NCBI RefSeq assembly: GCF_000703085.1
Contig: NZ_JNLL01000001.1
Span: forward strand, 930,001-994,000
Length of the DNA stretch: 64,000 nucleotides
From: Persephonella sp. KM09-Lau-8
Lineage (GTDB): Bacteria; Aquificota; Aquificia; Aquificales; Hydrogenothermaceae
Direction: 5' to 3'
The position numbers were made by a program, and so were the translations under genes. The notes under the pieces are model-generated. The model made no database searches and was not told the origin of the DNA. It saw only the letters and a list, made by a program, of their open reading frames with translations. Below are positions 3,682-21,400 of this stretch, piece after piece; position 1 is the first letter of the stretch; every line of letters begins with the position of its first letter.

Positions 3682-6600
3682 TTATTCTTCCTGCTTTTCT
3701 TCCTTGAGTTTTGGTTTAACTGCCCTTACGACTTTATCACCTTCTATTTTTATAAGTTGTTCTCCCATTGCTGTTCTTTTGGCAACTGGTATTGTGTTTT
3801 CATCAATCTTGAGCTTCAGGATACGACCTTTTTCTGTAGAAAGTAGAAGGTTATCCCCAATATTTACACTGGTAGCAACTGATAAGGCGTCATCTTTAGA
3901 AAGCTTGACTGCCATAAGTCCCTTCTGGGCTCTTTTTTTCAGTTTTCCTTCTTTTGTGTAAAACTCCTCTTTTCTAACAAGCTTTGTATAACCTTTTTCT
4001 GTTATTGTCAGGACATATTCTTCGCTGTTTATTAAAAATCCGCCTCTTACTTCATCTCCTTCATCTAAGTCTATGGCTTCTACGCCTTTTGCTTTATCTC
4101 CTGTTACCCTTACTTGAGACCTGTCAAACATAAGCAGGTCACCTTTCCTGGTATAAACTGCTATTGCTGATGGATGGTCATCTGAGAATGCCTGAACAAC
4201 CTCGTCATCCTCCGTAAGAGGAATAATCAGATGATTCTGGGATTTATAGAATATATCTTCATAAGACATCCTCTTAATTATTCCCTTTTTAGTCAGAATA
4301 AACAGTCTATCTTCATCTCCTTCACCTTTAAATGAAGTTCCGACTATTTCCCCTTCTTCAATATTTATCTTTCCTTCTCCTTTTGGAAGGTCTGCAACAA
4401 GGCTCCAGTAAGCCCTGCCTTTGTTTGTTATAAAGGCTATAGGAGTTGAGCTTTTTACTTCCTGTATGGAAATAAGTTTTTCCCCGGGGGCTACAGATGT
4501 AATAACTTCGCTTAACACCTTCTGATAAACTTCTTCTTTTGTTTCTGTTTCATCAAATTTTCTGTTTATTATTCTTCCTGAGCTTAAAACAGCCAGTATG
4601 AAATCCTCATCAAATGTGAGCTGCTCTCCTTTTTCTTCTACAACCATTGTTTTTCTTTCATCACCAAACTTTTCAAGCAGCTCATCCATCTCTTGAATGA
4701 ATACTTTTATTTTTTCTTCTTCTGAGGAGAGAATTCTCTGATATTCCTCTATTTTCAGTCTTAGCTCATCAGCTTCTTGATATAGCTTATCTCCTTCCAG
4801 TGCTGTAAATCTGGAAAGTCTCATATCTAGAATAGCCTGTGATTGTGCATCAGAAAGACCAAATTCTGCCTTTAGCTGTTCTTTTGCAGAGGATACATCT
4901 TTTGAGCCTCTGACTATTTCAATAACCCTGTCTGCATTTTCAAGGGCTTTAAGCAGACCTTCTACTATATGAAGTCTTTTTTCTGCTTTTTCAAGTTCAT
5001 AAAGGGTTCTTCTGGTTATTACTTCTATTCTATGCTTTATAAACTCCCATAAAATTCCTTTCAGGTCTAATGTTTTTGGCTGTTTTCCTACCAGAACGGT
5101 AAAGTTTATAGGTATTGATTTTTGGAGCTGTGTTCTTCTGTATAGTTTTTTAAGAACTTTTTCAGGGTCGGCTTCCCTTTTCAGCTCAACAATTATTCTG
5201 ATACCGTCCCTGTCTGATTCATCTCTAAGGTCTGATATTCCTTTTTCCTGTCCTTTTCTTACAAGCTCTGCAATTCTTTTTATAAACTCTACTTTGTTTA
5301 CCTGATATGGTATTTCATAAATGATTATTCTGTGTCTGTTTCCTGGGAGTTTTTCTATTCTGGCCTTTCCTTTTACTGTTACGGAGCCTCTACCATCTTG
5401 ATAAATCTTAATTATTTCTTCTTTTGGTGTGATTAGAACGCCACCTGTGGGGAAGTCTGGTCCTTTTATAAACTGGCAAAGTTCTTCAACTGTTGCGTTT
5501 GGAAACTCAGCCAAGTATTTGAGGGCTTCTGCAACTTCTGTAAAGTTGTGAGGTGGAATATTTGTTGAAAGCCCTACAGCAATACCTGCTGCACCATTAC
5601 ATATCAAATTTGGGAATTTTGCAGGGAGAACCTCCGGCTCCATTAAAGAGGCATCAAAGTTTTCTTTCATATCAACGGTGTTTTTGTCTATATCAGCAAG
5701 CATTTCCATTGCAAGCTTTGTAAGACGGGCTTCAGTGTTATGGTTGATTATTCCATTTCCAACAAAAGAATGACACTGGCTATTTACCCTGATTGAGTAA
5801 ACAACTTTTTCCCCTGTTTCTTCTACAGTTTTAACCTTTGCAAAGTAGTATCTATTTTCAAGAAGTTCTCTATAAAGGGCTAAATCTTCTTCATCAAGTA
5901 TTGTTTCAAGTTTTTCCCAGTATTTTTCAATCTTTGGATATCTATCTATATTGTGTTTTGAGAGCCATTCATTAAAACCTTTCCCTCTATATTTTCTTCT
6001 AATATACTCGGCTATAAAAGGAATAAAATCTGTTTTGCTATTTGCTGTTTCTTTTGCGTTTAACTCTTCTAAAAGCCTTTCTAATTTTTGCTGTTTTGTG
6101 CCTAAAAATCCTATTTTTTCTTTAAACAGTTTTACATTTTCATAACCTGAGATGATAAGTCTAAAGTTTTGCTTATCTCTGTGAATTCTTGAAATAATTC
6201 CAAAGTTCAGGAGTAAAACCTGTAGTTGTTTTAAGAGTTTTTTGCTTTTAGAGGTGTAAGAAATAGCAACAGTCCCTTTCCCTTTATAAACAGAGCCATC
6301 TCCTTCAAATAAAGCTTTGAGAAATGCTCTCTGCACTTTCTTTGAAGACCTTAAAACTGTATGCGGCACTTCTTTATCTGCTGATTTTTTTTCAAAACCT
6401 TTTTCCTTTATGTCTTCAATAACCTCTTTATGATGAACTTGATATTCAATCAGTGTTTTTCCGCTTTTGAGTTTTCTTTCATACCTGCAGCCCACCGTTC
6501 CATAGCTGCCAACAAGGACTGTTTCAAACTGCTTTGCAAAATCCTCGTCTGTGTTATTAAATCCCACTCTACCATCTGAGATATACCCTTCAGAAACAAG

Positions 6601-7338
6601 GGAACCAAGTAAAATAGCCTCTTCCTCTGTAAGTAAATCCTCAGTAGGCTCTATATCGTTTATTCTACTGACTATCACATAATCTCCAGTTTTTATCTGG
6701 TCAAGGGTTTTCCATTTATAGACAGGTTTACCGTTTTCGTCTGTAGTCCATGTTAAAACAGGATGGTTAAAGCTCCCTTCTACTTCGTAGCCTTCTTCTG
6801 TTTCTATTTTTATTGTTTTATGCTTTCCACTGTTGAAAAACATGTCAGATTTATTTATTTTCCTGTTTAAAGACTGGACTTTTATATCTACTGGATTATC
6901 TGAGTTTTCTTTGCTGTCAGGAACTATATCTTTTATTTTTATAAGACCTTTATCTGTGTGGATTAATGTATCTCCAACAACGCAGTATCTCATGGCAGCT
7001 GGTGGGTCACCATCTATAGAACCAAAGTTTCCCTGACCCTGTATAAGAGGATATCTAAGGGTAAAATCCTGAGCCATTCTAACAAGGGCATCGTAAACAG
7101 ATGTATCACCATGCGGGTGGTATTTACCAAGGACTTCCCCTACTACTCTTGCACTCTTTTTATATGGCTTATTTGGATATAATCCCAGTTCATTCATTGC
7201 ATAAAGAATTCTTCTCTGAACAGGCTTAAGGCCGTCTCTGACGTCTGGTATCGCCCTTCCGACGATAACAGACATTGCGTAATCCAAATAGGATGATTTT
7301 ACTTCCTCTTCAATAGGTTGTTTAATGATTTCTGACAT
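3682..7338 (-). CDS. gyrA: Type IIA DNA topoisomerase subunit A (GyrA/ParC type) with in-frame intein
   Basis: The product is 1218 residues, or 802 without the 416-residue intein (residues 119-534), a normal GyrA length. The N-extein (1-118) carries the winged-helix DNA-gate motifs ([30 protein letters not shown]) and ends at the catalytic tyrosine, Y118 in AAMRY. The C-extein resumes at TEARL and includes the tower and coiled-coil region and a C-terminal beta-pinwheel of repeated blades. The enzyme makes transient double-strand breaks to manage supercoiling or decatenation with GyrB/ParE, which is not in this window. I find no QRRGGKG-like GyrA-box in the C-terminal domain, so it may act as a topoisomerase IV-like enzyme, as reported for Aquifex aeolicus. 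ATG 7338 has an AAGGGG sequence 8 bases upstream. The name gyrA follows overall similarity. Confidence 0.95.
5737..6984 (-). mobile_element. GyrA intein with LAGLIDADG homing endonuclease domain
   Basis: This is a 416-residue intein inside gyrA, residues 119-534, inserted exactly between the catalytic Tyr118 and Thr535 (AMRY/TEARL). Splicing residues are visible: first residue Cys119 in CVVGDTLI, block B SFNHPVL with His192, and C-terminal block [13 protein letters not shown] with penultimate His533 and Asn534, followed by Thr535 as the +1 nucleophile. Two dodecapeptide endonuclease motifs are present: [11 protein letters not shown] (243-253, acidic Glu250) and [12 protein letters not shown] (339-350, acidic Asp347). 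Both keep an acidic residue, so the homing endonuclease may be active. The reading frame has no stop or shift. Mycobacterial GyrA inteins use the same insertion site (established knowledge), which points to a shared homing target and possible horizontal transfer. Confidence 0.95.
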
Positions 7339-16612: not shown

Positions 16613-17890
16613 ATGAATAAAAAACCGCTAAGCGAAAGATTACGACCTGAGAGATTATCACAGATAATAGGACAGGAAGAACTCCTTGGAGAAGGAAAAC
16701 CCCTTAGACAAATCATAAAATCAGGGAATTTAAAATCTATGATTTTATGGGGACCTCCCGGGACTGGAAAAACAACCCTCGCCAGAGTAATAGCAAAAGA
16801 GACTAACTACCAATTTTTTGAACTTAATGCCATATCATCAGGAGTTCAGGATATAAGAAAAGTTATAGAAGAAAGTAAGAAAAATCCTCTATTTTCAAAT
16901 GGAACAATCCTATTTATAGATGAAATACACAGATTTAACAAAGGACAGCAAGAAGCCTTATTATCTGCAGTGGAAAAAGGGGAAATCATTCTGATAGGTG
17001 CTACGACAGAAAACCCATCCTTTAGCCTTGTTTCTCCTTTGCTTTCCAGATGTCATGTATTTCAGCTTAAACCTCTATCTTATGAAGCATTGGAAAAATT
17101 AATAGATCGGGCTTTAAAAGAAGACAAAATTTTATCTAAGCGGAATATTCAGATTCCTGATAAAGAAATGTTGATAAACCTATCAGGCGGAGATGCAAGG
17201 GTCTTACTAAATGCAATAGAAATGGCAGTTAATATAACAGAAAAAGATCCTGTAATAATAGATAAAGACCTTGTAAAGCAGGTTTTCTCCAGACCAAATT
17301 TAATATACGACAGAAATCAGGATATCCATTACAGCCTGATTTCTGCATTTATAAAAAGCATTAGAGGTTCTGACCCTGACGCAGCAGTGTATTATCTGGC
17401 TAAAATGCTTGAAGGAGGAGAAGACCCAGTTTTTATAGCAAGAAGACTTGTTATTCTTGCGAGCGAGGATGTAGGAAACGCAGAGCCCTATGCCCTTACT
17501 CTTGCAACAAGCTGTTTAACAGCAGTAGAAAAAATTGGAATGCCAGAAGCACAGATTATTCTATCCCAGACAGCTACATATCTTGCCAGCTGTCCAAAAA
17601 GCAACGCAGCATATAAAGCTATAAAAGAAGCTATAAAGGATGTTAGACAAAATCCAAACATTCCTGTTCTCCTTCATCTTATAAACCCTTCAACAAAATT
17701 AATGGAAAAATTAGGCTATGGTAAGAATTACAAATATCCCCATGACTATCCTGAAAATTTTGTGGTGCAAAACTACCTTCCACCTGAACTAAAAAACAAG
17801 CAATATTATCTGCCAACTGAAAATGGTCGTGAAAAAAAGATCAAAGAAAGACTAAAAAATCTGTGGAAAGGAATCAAAAAGTATATATAA
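16613..17890 (+). CDS. rarA: replication-associated recombination protein A (AAA+ ATPase)
   Basis: The protein has 425 residues and belongs to the RarA/MgsA/WRNIP1 clamp-loader-like family. Walker A is GPPGTGKTT (47-55), Walker B is ILFIDEIHRF (about 98-107) and sensor 1 is GATTENPSF. The C-terminal tetramerisation region contains GSDPDAAVYYLAKMLEGGEDP, typical of the family. It acts at stalled replication forks with SSB and influences replication restart. The ATG at 16613 follows GGGATAAA. The gene ends just before a small palindrome and the NifX-like gene, so the two may be cotranscribed. Confidence 0.93.
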   Translation: MNKKPLSERLRPERLSQIIGQEELLGEGKPLRQIIKSGNLKSMILWGPPGTGKTTLARVIAKETNYQFFELNAISSGVQDIRKVIEESKKNPLFSNGTILFIDEIHRFNKGQQEALLSAVEKGEIILIGATTENPSFSLVSPLLSRCHVFQLKPLSYEALEKLIDRALKEDKILSKRNIQIPDKEMLINLSGGDARVLLNAIEMAVNITEKDPVIIDKDLVKQVFSRPNLIYDRNQDIHYSLISAFIKSIRGSDPDAAVYYLAKMLEGGEDPVFIARRLVILASEDVGNAEPYALTLATSCLTAVEKIGMPEAQIILSQTATYLASCPKSNAAYKAIKEAIKDVRQNPNIPVLLHLINPSTKLMEKLGYGKNYKYPHDYPENFVVQNYLPPELKNKQYYLPTENGREKKIKERLKNLWKGIKKYI

Positions 17891-17922: not shown

Positions 17923-18285
17923 ATGAAAATAGCAATGCCTGTAAAACCAAAAGGAGATGATTATGTCCTGTCAACTGCTTATGGGAAAGCCAAATTTTTC
18001 CTAATCTATGATACAGATACACAGGAAAGTAAAATAATTGAAAATACAGCATTAAACGGCAAAGGAATTGCACAGGATTTAGCTGCTGAGCATGTTGACG
18101 TGGTGATTACTAATCATATAGGTGGCGGAGCATATAATGCACTTGTTGAAAAAGGTATAAAGGCTTATTTTACAGAGGATAAAAATCAAAGCTATAAAAA
18201 AATCATTCAAGATTTTCTACAAAATAAACTAAATGAGATTACTTCCCAGAACTTCCATTTAATTCCACAACATCACCATCACTAA
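17923..18285 (+). CDS. NifX/NifB-C-terminal-like (dinitrogenase iron-molybdenum cofactor family) protein
   Basis: The product is 120 residues from the ATG at 17923, chosen because GGAGG lies 6 bases upstream. The upstream in-frame ATG at 17917 touches the ribosome binding site. The fold signature is a single NifX/NafY-type domain: MKIAMP at the start, a central HVDVVITNHIGGGAYNALVEKGI and YFTED. Members bind iron-sulphur or iron-molybdenum precursors, but many small ones occur without nitrogenase and have no settled role. No nif genes are nearby. The protein ends in a natural histidine tail (QHHHH), which could bind metal. Confidence 0.75.
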   Translation: MKIAMPVKPKGDDYVLSTAYGKAKFFLIYDTDTQESKIIENTALNGKGIAQDLAAEHVDVVITNHIGGGAYNALVEKGIKAYFTEDKNQSYKKIIQDFLQNKLNEITSQNFHLIPQHHHH

Positions 18286-18290
18286 AATAA

Positions 18291-18356
18291 AATCCCCCTG
18301 CATTTATAAAAAAATCTAACTAAATTTATGGATATAACCCTTTTTGCAGGGGGATT
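18291..18356 (+). promoter_or_regulatory. long-range 12-bp helix that would sequester the nrdJ ribosome binding site
   Basis: AATCCCCCTGCA at 18291-18302 is perfectly complementary to TGCAGGGGGATT at 18345-18356, with a 42-base loop. The right arm contains the GGGGGA ribosome binding site, 6 bases before the nrdJ ATG at 18360. The helix would hide the site, so folding could control translation. It could alternatively act as an attenuator, though no U tract follows. The loop is far too short for a cobalamin riboswitch. Confidence 0.65.
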
Positions 18357-18359
18357 CTT

Positions 18360-20849
18360 ATGATTCAAAAAATTATAAAAAGAGATGGCAGAGTAGTAGA
18401 CTTTAATCCTGAAAAAATCACAAATGCCATTTTTAAAGCAATGATTTCCGTAGGTGAACCGGACAGAGAACTTGCAGAAAAACTAACAAAAAATGTTATC
18501 AAAAAACTCCAAAAAACCCTAAAAAAGAACCAGATTCCAACAGTTGAACAGGTTCAGGATATTGTTGAACAGGTATTAATTGAAGCAAATCTGGCTAAAG
18601 TGGCAAAAGCATATATACTCTACCGTCAAAAAAGGGCAGAAATCAGAAAAGAAAAACAAAAAATACTGAATAAGGATAAATTAGATGAGATAGATAAAAG
18701 ATTTGATGTGAATGCCTTGAGAGTCCTTGCAGCACGTTATCTTTCAAGAGACAGAGAAGGTAATATAATAGAAAGTCCCAAACAGATGTTTGAAAGGGTA
18801 GCCATAAACACTGCAATACCATCAATCCTCTACGATCCTCAAATTTTTTCTTTAAAAAGACTTCCTAAAAAACAGAAAGATGAAAATATTGATCCGGAAA
18901 AACTTGCAGGGAAGCTCAAAATTGGTCAATACAACCTAAATAAATACCATATTGAATCTCTAATAAGGGTTTATAACAGACTTAATAAAAACAGACACAT
19001 GAAAAAGCCCTTATCCCAGATTATAAAAATGATTCAGGATGGAAAACTTGATAAATATGAAGAAGAAATTAAGGAATACTTTGATATTATGACAAGCAAA
19101 AAATTCATGCCTAATACACCTGTTCTTGTTAATTTTGGTAATCCGCTTGGAATGGGAATGGCCTGTTTTGTTCTGGACATAGAAGATAGCATTGTATCTA
19201 TCATGGAAACATTAAAAAGGGCTGCACTGATTTTTAAAGCTGGAGGAGGTTGTGGATACAACTTTTCCAAGCTCAGACCCAAAGGGGATTATATCAGCAC
19301 AACCCACGGGAGAAGCTCAGGACCCATAGCTTTTATGACTTTATACGATAAAATGACAGATGTTATTAAGCAAGGCGGAGTCCGAAGAGGAGCCAATATG
19401 GGCATCCTTAATTCTGACCACCCTGATATTGAGGAGTTCATAACAGCAAAAAAAGGAAACAAGCAGCTAACTAACTTTAATATATCTGTTTTTGTAAAAG
19501 AGGATTTTTGGGATTATTATGAAAAAAACAAACCTTATCCACTTATAAATCCAAGGGATGGAAAAGTCTGGAAATATGTTAATCCCCGAACACTATTTGA
19601 TATGATTGTTTATCAAGGATGGGAATCAGCTGAACCTGGGCTGTTATTTGATGACAATATCAACAGATACAATCCCCTCATAAAAGCATTTGGCAGAATA
19701 TATGCAACAAATCCCTGTGGAGAAGTGGTTTTATACCCAAATGAAAGCTGTGATTTAGGCTCTCTTAATCTATGGGCTTTTATAAAAGAAGAATACCACG
19801 ACGGAAAAAGGAAAGTTTATTTTGACTGGGAGGACTTCAGAAAAAGCATAAAAATAGCCACAAGATTCTTAGATAATGTCCTTGACGTGAATAAATACCC
19901 TTTTCCAGAAATAGAAAAAATGACTCTAAAAAACAGAAAAATAGGTCTTGGAATTATGGGTCTTGCAGATATGCTTTTTGAACTTGAAATTCCGTATAAC
20001 AGCGAAGAAGGTAGAGAATGGATGGAAAAAGTGATGGAATACGTTAATTACTACTCCAAAGAAGAATCTATAGAAAGGGCAAAAAAAAGGGGTAAATTTC
20101 CAACATACAGAAAAAGCTTTTACCCTGAAGGAAAAATGCCAATAAAAGGATTTGAGGAAAGAGACAGCTGGAATCTGGACTGGGATAAACTGGTCAAAAA
20201 AATAAAAAAACACGGCCTTAGAAATACATTTACCACGGTTGTTGCCCCAACAGGTTCAATAAGCATGATAGCCGGAACATCCTCAGGAATAGAACCTGTA
20301 TTTAGCCTTGTATACGAGAAAAAAGTTAGTCTGGGAACATTTTATTATGTTGACCCTGTTTTTGAAAAAATAATGGAAAAGGAAGGCCTATATGATGATA
20401 ATCTGCTAAAAGATGTTTCAGCCAATGAAGGAAGTATACAGCAGATAAAATATATACCGGACAAATGGAAAAAAATATTTGTTACTGCCCTTGATATCTC
20501 AGCAGAAGACCACGTCAGAGCCCTTGCTGCAATCCAGAAATGGACAGATTCCTCTGTATCAAAAACAATAAACTTCCCAGAACACGCAACAGTTGAAGAT
20601 ATGAGAAAAGCCTACTTGCTTGCACATTCCCTTGGCTGCAAAGGATTAACCGTTTATAGATATAAATCAATAAAAAGTGTCTACATCCCTGGTGAAGAAA
20701 AAGAGGAAAAACCCAAATCTGTTAAAATAGAAGAAACCAAAGGAAATGAAGAAAAAATAGAAAAATGCCCTATATGTGGCACACCATTGATTAAATCTGA
20801 AGGATGTAAAAAATGTCCAGTATGTGGATGGAGTGTGTGTGAGCTATGA
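18360..20849 (+). CDS. nrdJ: adenosylcobalamin-dependent (class II) ribonucleoside reductase
   Basis: The 829-residue protein has an N-terminal ATP-cone (1-90, starting IIKRDGRVVDFNPEKI), then the ten-stranded barrel of class II reductases with GGGCGYNFSKLRP, NPCGE and TSSGIEP motifs, and a C-terminal zinc-ribbon-like tail with CxxC pairs (CPICGTPL, CKKCPVCGWSVC). Candidate catalytic cysteines are C269 (redox), C453 in NPCGE (thiyl radical) and C464 (redox). It converts ribonucleotides to deoxyribonucleotides using adenosylcobalamin and needs no oxygen, fitting a low-oxygen thermophile. The GGGGGA ribosome binding site lies in a potential long-range helix. The stop overlaps the ATG of the cobalamin adenosyltransferase gene, so cofactor supply and use are coupled. 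Confidence 0.93.
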   Translation: MIQKIIKRDGRVVDFNPEKITNAIFKAMISVGEPDRELAEKLTKNVIKKLQKTLKKNQIPTVEQVQDIVEQVLIEANLAKVAKAYILYRQKRAEIRKEKQKILNKDKLDEIDKRFDVNALRVLAARYLSRDREGNIIESPKQMFERVAINTAIPSILYDPQIFSLKRLPKKQKDENIDPEKLAGKLKIGQYNLNKYHIESLIRVYNRLNKNRHMKKPLSQIIKMIQDGKLDKYEEEIKEYFDIMTSKKFMPNTPVLVNFGNPLGMGMACFVLDIEDSIVSIMETLKRAALIFKAGGGCGYNFSKLRPKGDYISTTHGRSSGPIAFMTLYDKMTDVIKQGGVRRGANMGILNSDHPDIEEFITAKKGNKQLTNFNISVFVKEDFWDYYEKNKPYPLINPRDGKVWKYVNPRTLFDMIVYQGWESAEPGLLFDDNINRYNPLIKAFGRIYATNPCGEVVLYPNESCDLGSLNLWAFIKEEYHDGKRKVYFDWEDFRKSIKIATRFLDNVLDVNKYPFPEIEKMTLKNRKIGLGIMGLADMLFELEIPYNSEEGREWMEKVMEYVNYYSKEESIERAKKRGKFPTYRKSFYPEGKMPIKGFEERDSWNLDWDKLVKKIKKHGLRNTFTTVVAPTGSISMIAGTSSGIEPVFSLVYEKKVSLGTFYYVDPVFEKIMEKEGLYDDNLLKDVSANEGSIQQIKYIPDKWKKIFVTALDISAEDHVRALAAIQKWTDSSVSKTINFPEHATVEDMRKAYLLAHSLGCKGLTVYRYKSIKSVYIPGEEKEEKPKSVKIEETKGNEEKIEKCPICGTPLIKSEGCKKCPVCGWSVCEL

Positions 20850-21400
20850 TTTATATATTTACAGGAAACGGAAAAGGCAAAACCACAGCAGCTATTGGAA
20901 CAGGTATTAGAGCCGTTGGAGCAGGTTACCGAGTTTTAATGGTTCAATTTATGAAAGTAAAAGAACTTTCATCAGAATACAATGTTCTGAGCAAACTGGA
21001 AAATTTTGATATAGAAAGTTTCGGCAGAAAAGGATTTTACCTTCCACAAGAAGAACTGGAAAAAAATCCTGAGCTTAAAGAAAAAGGGTTCAAACCCTTC
21101 TCAAAAATAGATTATCAAATGGCAAATGATGGAATAGAATTTGTGATTAATGCAGTGATAAATCAAACCTATGATGTAATTATAATGGACGAACTCTGCG
21201 TGGCTTTAAACTACAAACTAATAGAAGAAAACAGAATTAAAAACTTCCTGAAAGAATACAAAAAGGATTTCCATTTTATAATCACCGGCAGATACTGCCC
21301 TGACTGGCTTATGGAAATAGCAGACCTGATCACAGAGATGAAAGAAATAAAACATCCTTTCCACAAAGGCATCCCCGCCCAAAAAGGCCTTGATTATTGA
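20846..21400 (+). CDS. cobO: cob(I)alamin / cob(I)yrinic acid a,c-diamide adenosyltransferase, CobO/BtuR type
   Basis: This 184-residue protein has the N-terminal P-loop GNGKGKTTAAIGTG and the CobA/CobO motifs IIMDELCVAL and HFIITGRYCPDWL, ending in the typical KGIPAQKGLDY. The family transfers the 5'-deoxyadenosyl group of ATP to reduced cobalt, making adenosylcobalamin, the cofactor of the enzyme encoded just upstream. ATGA overlap with nrdJ makes this a functional operon. Its activity could serve salvage or the late steps of synthesis. No other cobalamin genes are in the window. Confidence 0.93.
   Translation: MIYIFTGNGKGKTTAAIGTGIRAVGAGYRVLMVQFMKVKELSSEYNVLSKLENFDIESFGRKGFYLPQEELEKNPELKEKGFKPFSKIDYQMANDGIEFVINAVINQTYDVIIMDELCVALNYKLIEENRIKNFLKEYKKDFHFIITGRYCPDWLMEIADLITEMKEIKHPFHKGIPAQKGLDY

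Follow-up and report, generated by a model that had tools for sequence, protein, structure and literature searches.

In the insertion sequences IS10 and IS50, transcripts that enter the transposase gene from outside fold and hide its start signal, whereas the element's own transcript does not. In bacteriophage T4, the Shine-Dalgarno (SD) sequence is hidden on the longer early transcripts of genes e, soc, 49 and I-TevI, and transcripts from the late promoters lack the 5′ strand; for gene e, which encodes lysozyme, the measured repression is about 100-fold (PMC3014915, PMC2988022). In coupled gene pairs, an SD-masking helix is opened by upstream ribosomes (PMC4825925). A literature search for a cellular precedent of fold-back insulation of the phage type gave nothing direct, and neither did a search on the regulation of ribonucleotide reductase in Persephonella.

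The window analysed here, which is the whole 64,000-nucleotide stretch of DNA, derives from Persephonella sp. KM09-Lau-8 (genome G000; 2.07 Mb) and contains nrdJ, encoding a second, cofactor-dependent ribonucleotide reductase, a conditional enzyme. We propose, with moderate confidence, that a helix over the nrdJ SD constitutes a start-site-dependent translation block, a fold-back insulation built like the T4 lysozyme leader.

The nrdJ locus and the helix over its Shine-Dalgarno sequence

The nrdJ gene is located in a tandem run, 74 nt downstream of a NifX-like gene; the next gene encodes the corrinoid adenosyltransferase that makes the cofactor of NrdJ (Table 1). A gene for NrdR is present in the genome, and inspection of the nrdJ leader by eye revealed no NrdR-box-like repeat. 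The original prediction had described a perfect 12-bp helix that would mask the nrdJ ribosome binding site, and this was confirmed both from the sequence, in which the two arms are exact reverse complements, and by RNA folding. The left arm does lie just past the NifX-like stop codon, its first base being the sixth after the last base of the stop. The GGGGGA motif was correctly placed within the right arm, although 5 bases, instead of the 6 predicted, separate it from the ATG at 18360. At all the folding temperatures used, between 37 and 80 °C, the helix formed and the SD core was paired with a probability near 1. This extrapolated folding, in which the modelled helix stays shut throughout, argues against the temperature switch that had been suggested.

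Table 1. Features of the nrdJ locus and of companion loci; positions without a prefix are those of the window
Feature	Coordinates	Strand	Remarks
rarA/mgsA-like AAA+ ATPase gene	16613..17890	+	PF12002; opens the tandem run
NifX-like gene (dinitrogenase iron-molybdenum cofactor family)	17923..18285	+	PF02579, E 1.5e-16; 5′ of the helix
Stop codon of the NifX-like gene	18283-18285		
Left arm AATCCCCCTGCA	18291..18302	+	starts 6 nt past the NifX-like stop; 12/12 identical in G001
Putative -35, CTGCAT	18298..18303	+	position -62; overlaps the left arm; weak by itself
Loop, 42 nt, A/T-rich	18303..18344	+	32-base stretch unchanged in G001
Putative -10, TAAATT	18321..18326	+	position -39; lies within the loop, separated from the -35 by 17 nt
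Predicted transcription start region of nrdJ's own mRNA	18330..18336	+	inferred from the -10 position
Right arm TGCAGGGGGATT	18345..18356	+	core TGCAGGGGG same in G001
SD of nrdJ, GGGGGA	18349..18354	+	within the right arm
nrdJ, adenosylcobalamin-dependent ribonucleotide reductase	18360..20849	+	TIGR02504 above cut-off; PF02867
CobA/CobO/BtuR-type corrinoid adenosyltransferase gene	20846..21400	+	PF02572, E 6.5e-55; overlaps the nrdJ stop
tetR-family gene	G000:C1:1457659-1458261	-	PF00440; 80 nt after a hypB-like gene (HypB by inspection)
DUF4382 lipoprotein gene	L081:13253-13345 (G000:C1:833338)		SD masked by a 13-pair helix whose loop contains TATAAT
Flagellin leader	L066:5830-5935		9-bp helix; left arm ACCTCCGAT overlaps a sigma28-like -10 (CCGATAA)

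To quantify the masking, the opening cost was defined as the free energy needed to hold the 6-nt SD core unpaired. For the nrdJ leader it amounted to 20.5 kcal/mol at 37 °C and fell to 11.3 at 70 °C, and at neither temperature was the observed cost reached by any of 200 dinucleotide shuffles of this leader. At 70 °C, nrdJ ranked first among 417 genes from about 454 kb of the genome (median 1.1, 99th percentile 5.6) and second among 853 genes from 854 kb (about 41% of the genome), these ranks being approximate because genes and starts were called by our own script, which favours good SD sequences. The value of 11.3 was not reached by any of 5,004 shuffled leaders of the 417 genes, whose maximum was 8.3. 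Perfect inverted repeats of 11-13 bases are also found elsewhere in the A/T-rich window, and arm length alone is therefore unremarkable; the remarkable part is that G+C-rich arms are placed exactly on the SD. The earlier view that the complementarity is unlikely by chance is supported: as a helix that masks the SD, it goes far beyond what chance would give.

Across the genome, the median cost was not shifted and only a tail of few genes stood out. In a stratified table, two of the 108 tandem genes with gaps of 40-200 nt reached a cost of 9, compared with none in shuffles; a tetR-family gene described below is absent from this table, having been excluded by the SD-score cut-off. All three genes with a cost of 9 or more in the 853-gene scan are tandem genes with gaps of 74-84 nt. 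Divergent genes were set apart in the scan; they show SD-to-SD complementarity because the SD of each strand reads C-rich on the other. Elsewhere in the window, gyrA (3682-7338, minus strand) contains an intein with a LAGLIDADG-like domain, and its leader exhibits CCCCCTG...AAGGGG complementarity on the SD, with an opening cost of 4.5 at 70 °C.

A strong NrdJ match was identified in 15 of the 41 genomes of the family (Hydrogenothermaceae), and a homologous nrdJ leader only in the sister species G001, whose NrdJ is 96% identical. In G001 the 9-bp core CCCCCTGCA/TGCAGGGGG is unchanged, the outer three pairs being shifted by a deletion, and the loop is unchanged across AAAAAATCTAACTAAATTTATGGATATAACCC, with third codon positions of the flanking genes 79-83% identical. 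The gene order is also kept, at a stop-to-arm distance about 1 nt longer, and among 935 genes scanned in three genomes (G001, G009 and G015) this nrdJ ranks highest. The covariation sought in related nrdJ leaders was not found: with G001 as the sole homologous leader and an invariant core, there were no compensatory double changes in the nrdJ helix.

The remaining nrdJ leaders of the family exhibit no SD masking above shuffles, with the exception of G015, which carries an independent 9-bp helix (nominal p 0.015-0.035, uncorrected for the 15 leaders tested). Apparent masking in the leaders of G004, G005, G009 and G007 did not exceed shuffles and was discarded. As nearly all other leaders of the family lack the masking, the helix is not a general control element of nrdJ. 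In the G015 leader (L010:1440-1501), which lies downstream of a carB-like gene, pairing of CTGCCCTCC with GGAGGGCGG could cover the SD (9 bp, loop of 34), and CCCCC could also pair locally with the same SD as a competing second mask; both are unrelated in sequence to the KM09-Lau-8 helix. A strong NrdJ match is absent from several members of the genus, and the nrdJ of G008, a Persephonella MAG (G008:C5:13485-16036), contains many stop codons and is likely a pseudogene or affected by assembly errors.

A promoter-like motif between the arms and the proposed mechanism

The original prediction missed a promoter-like motif situated within the span of the helix. In KM09-Lau-8 it reads CTGCAT-N17-TAAATT at -62, and G001 has the same motif with a 16-nt spacer. 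Alignment of the leaders revealed TTGAAN-N17-[CG]AAATT in G004, G009, G005, G008, G002 and G011, located at -62 to -58 relative to the ATG, and the nrdJ leaders of G027, G035 and G062 contain TTG[AC]A-N17-TATACT at about -48. The motif NTGMAN-N17-NAWAYT is found at -62 to -58 in KM09-Lau-8 and in the six former genomes, and in G001 with the 16-nt spacer. This motif, which was written from the leaders of the relatives, occurred in 0.7% of shuffles of the 74-nt KM09-Lau-8 intergenic region and in 3% of those for G001. Moreover, the nearest gene upstream of nrdJ is divergent in G009, G005 and G008, whose leaders consequently need a promoter of their own. The motif may be active as a promoter in this strain as well. 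Against this, the KM09-Lau-8 site, although the best of its leader by a generic sigma70 score, is weak when scored alone (p = 0.86 versus shuffles), which also weighs against the insulation that we propose.

Under the proposed mechanism, mRNA entering from rarA and the NifX-like gene would carry both arms and form the 12-bp helix. Such a read-through rarA-nifX-nrdJ mRNA may exist: the genes lie in tandem, and a search from rarA to the helix loop revealed no terminator-like site. As the helix would hide the SD, nrdJ would be poorly translated from this mRNA; folding of the read-through RNA predicts an opening cost of 10.6 kcal/mol at 70 °C and of 19.3 at 37 °C. A promoter with its -35 on the left arm and its -10 in the loop would instead start a leader of about 27 nt, and mRNA made from it would lack the left arm and leave the SD open. 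Consistently, RNAs starting within the predicted region yielded modelled opening costs of 1.4-1.6 at 70 °C, pointing to an accessible SD on short leaders. The output of nrdJ would then track its own promoter, not the neighbouring genes.

A transcription start after the left arm had been regarded as a refutation of the helix. The conserved promoter-like motif does predict such a start, which in the model that we prefer would belong to the device and would not refute the helix. If this model is true, a genome that is compact, with genes in tandem and few terminators, could stop transcriptional spill-over from making a conditional enzyme, and other bacteria could be scanned for a simple signature: a long SD-masking helix that has a promoter in its loop.

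Several further observations count against insulation. Only two sister species have the helix, and compensatory double changes are absent. The nrdJ genes of G004 and G007, likewise downstream of rarA, show no significant masking. Furthermore, extremes of masking are few, and the samples of G015 and G009 (400 kb each) contained no comparable case.

Companion genes and competing explanations

A similar layout, which speaks for insulation, was observed at three further masked tandem genes of the genome, whose promoter elements lie within the fold-back or overlap it (Table 1). In the leader of a tetR-family gene, an 18-bp perfect helix masks the SD and a good promoter sequence, TTGATA-N17-TATACT, is situated between the arms, with the -35 touching the left arm at -62 and the -10 at -39, distances equal to those of nrdJ; the helix core is kept in four relatives. 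The DUF4382 lipoprotein gene follows a gap of 84 nt, its left arm lying about 16 nt past the upstream stop, and its helix is kept in G001. The loop of this helix contains TATAAT, and upstream of it is a direct repeat, GTAACTCT-N3-GTAACTCT, possibly a regulator site. The flagellin arrangement recurs in many relatives: in much of the genus, the overlapping sigma28-like -10, ACCTCCGATAA, and the SD region, ATCGGAGGT, are complementary, so that read-through RNA would be masked. Among relatives, all changes in the 13-bp core of the tetR helix and in the DUF4382 helix leave a pair that is G-U or better; such G-U changes are one-sided only, and no double changes were found in either.

The companion genes were chosen after ranking and consequently suggest, but do not prove, a common device; this choice, together with a DUF4382 loop that lacks a clear -35, also counts against insulation. 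We put forward only tentatively that, in a Persephonella lineage, promoter-in-loop fold-backs may insulate nrdJ, tetR, the DUF4382 lipoprotein gene and flagellin against upstream read-through, as a cellular counterpart of the devices of T4 late genes and transposons.

The main rival to insulation is translational coupling, which we judge rather unlikely and which could coexist with it; it corresponds to the response to upstream translation raised in the original prediction. Here, the helix would stay closed on polycistronic mRNA unless a ribosome that terminates on the NifX-like gene covers the left arm or melts it, and nrdJ would follow the translation of that gene. The left arm is within reach of such a ribosome: covering 9, 12 or 15 nt past the stop cuts the modelled cost from 10.6 to 5.9, 2.8 or 2.3, respectively, at 70 °C. 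The near-constant stop-to-arm distance and the gene order in G001 point the same way. Nevertheless, coupling leaves unexplained both the promoter-like motif between the nrdJ arms and the same loop plan in tetR and DUF4382, with their 80- and 84-nt gaps and, in the latter, the more distant arm. The 74-nt gap is long for coupling, and strong masking is missing in G004 and G007, where rarA likewise lies upstream.

A neutral or mutational by-product without function, for instance a template switch that copied one arm onto the other in the common ancestor of KM09-Lau-8 and G001, appears improbable. It would be consistent with a helix limited to two sister species and devoid of compensatory changes, and with the lack of any general excess of SD masking across the genome. 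However, the 9-bp core has remained unchanged despite the divergence at third codon positions, and the helices of two more tandem genes are comparably extreme and are kept through G-U changes in relatives. Moreover, shutting a functional enzyme gene with a helix should come at a cost unless the helix is handled.

It is still less probable that the inverted repeat works as DNA, as regulator half-sites flanking the nrdJ promoter and bound, for example, by a bridging repressor. The arms do flank the promoter-like motif, and those of nrdJ and tetR have CCCCTGC/GCAGGGG in common. However, in the tetR and DUF4382 elements of relatives the changes break DNA symmetry but RNA pairing persists through G-U, in every case the right arm lies on the SD, and the arms are single-copy, no other copy of the pair being present in the genome and single-arm matches numbering two, one of them within a coding region.

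Least probable of all is the ligand (adenosylcobalamin)- or temperature-sensing switch, a novel control element for a B12 enzyme, put forward originally: the cofactor requirement of nrdJ, the adenosyltransferase gene that follows and the loop conserved in G001 would suit it, but the A/T-rich loop has no aptamer-like structure, Rfam gave no match in the window and none in the leader with E values of up to 10 allowed, cobalamin riboswitches were found in none of the 41 family genomes (8 of 14 control genomes being positive), and the masking helix is absent from most nrdJ leaders while the strongest similar helices precede unrelated genes.

Comparison with known systems

Cobalamin riboswitches (RF00174) regulate B12-related genes, some of them by hiding the SD, whereas the nrdJ leader exhibits neither a match nor an aptamer. 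Coupled gene pairs resemble nrdJ in that the downstream SD is masked on polycistronic mRNA and the left arm lies near the upstream stop; they differ from it in that nrdJ has a 74-nt gap and a promoter-like motif between the arms. IS10 and IS50 are mobile elements with terminal inverted repeats, and the nrdJ locus gives no sign of a mobile element. Like the T4 leaders, nrdJ is predicted by folding to hold its SD in a helix on long, upstream-initiated transcripts; the T4 promoters yield a short transcript without the 5′ arm, as the putative nrdJ promoter would. The T4 cases are phage late genes with mapped starts and measured repression, whereas nrdJ is a chromosomal gene with a predicted promoter and a helix derived from folding. 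By this comparison, the nrdJ fold-back may quite plausibly represent a chromosomal case of the already known T4-type plan.
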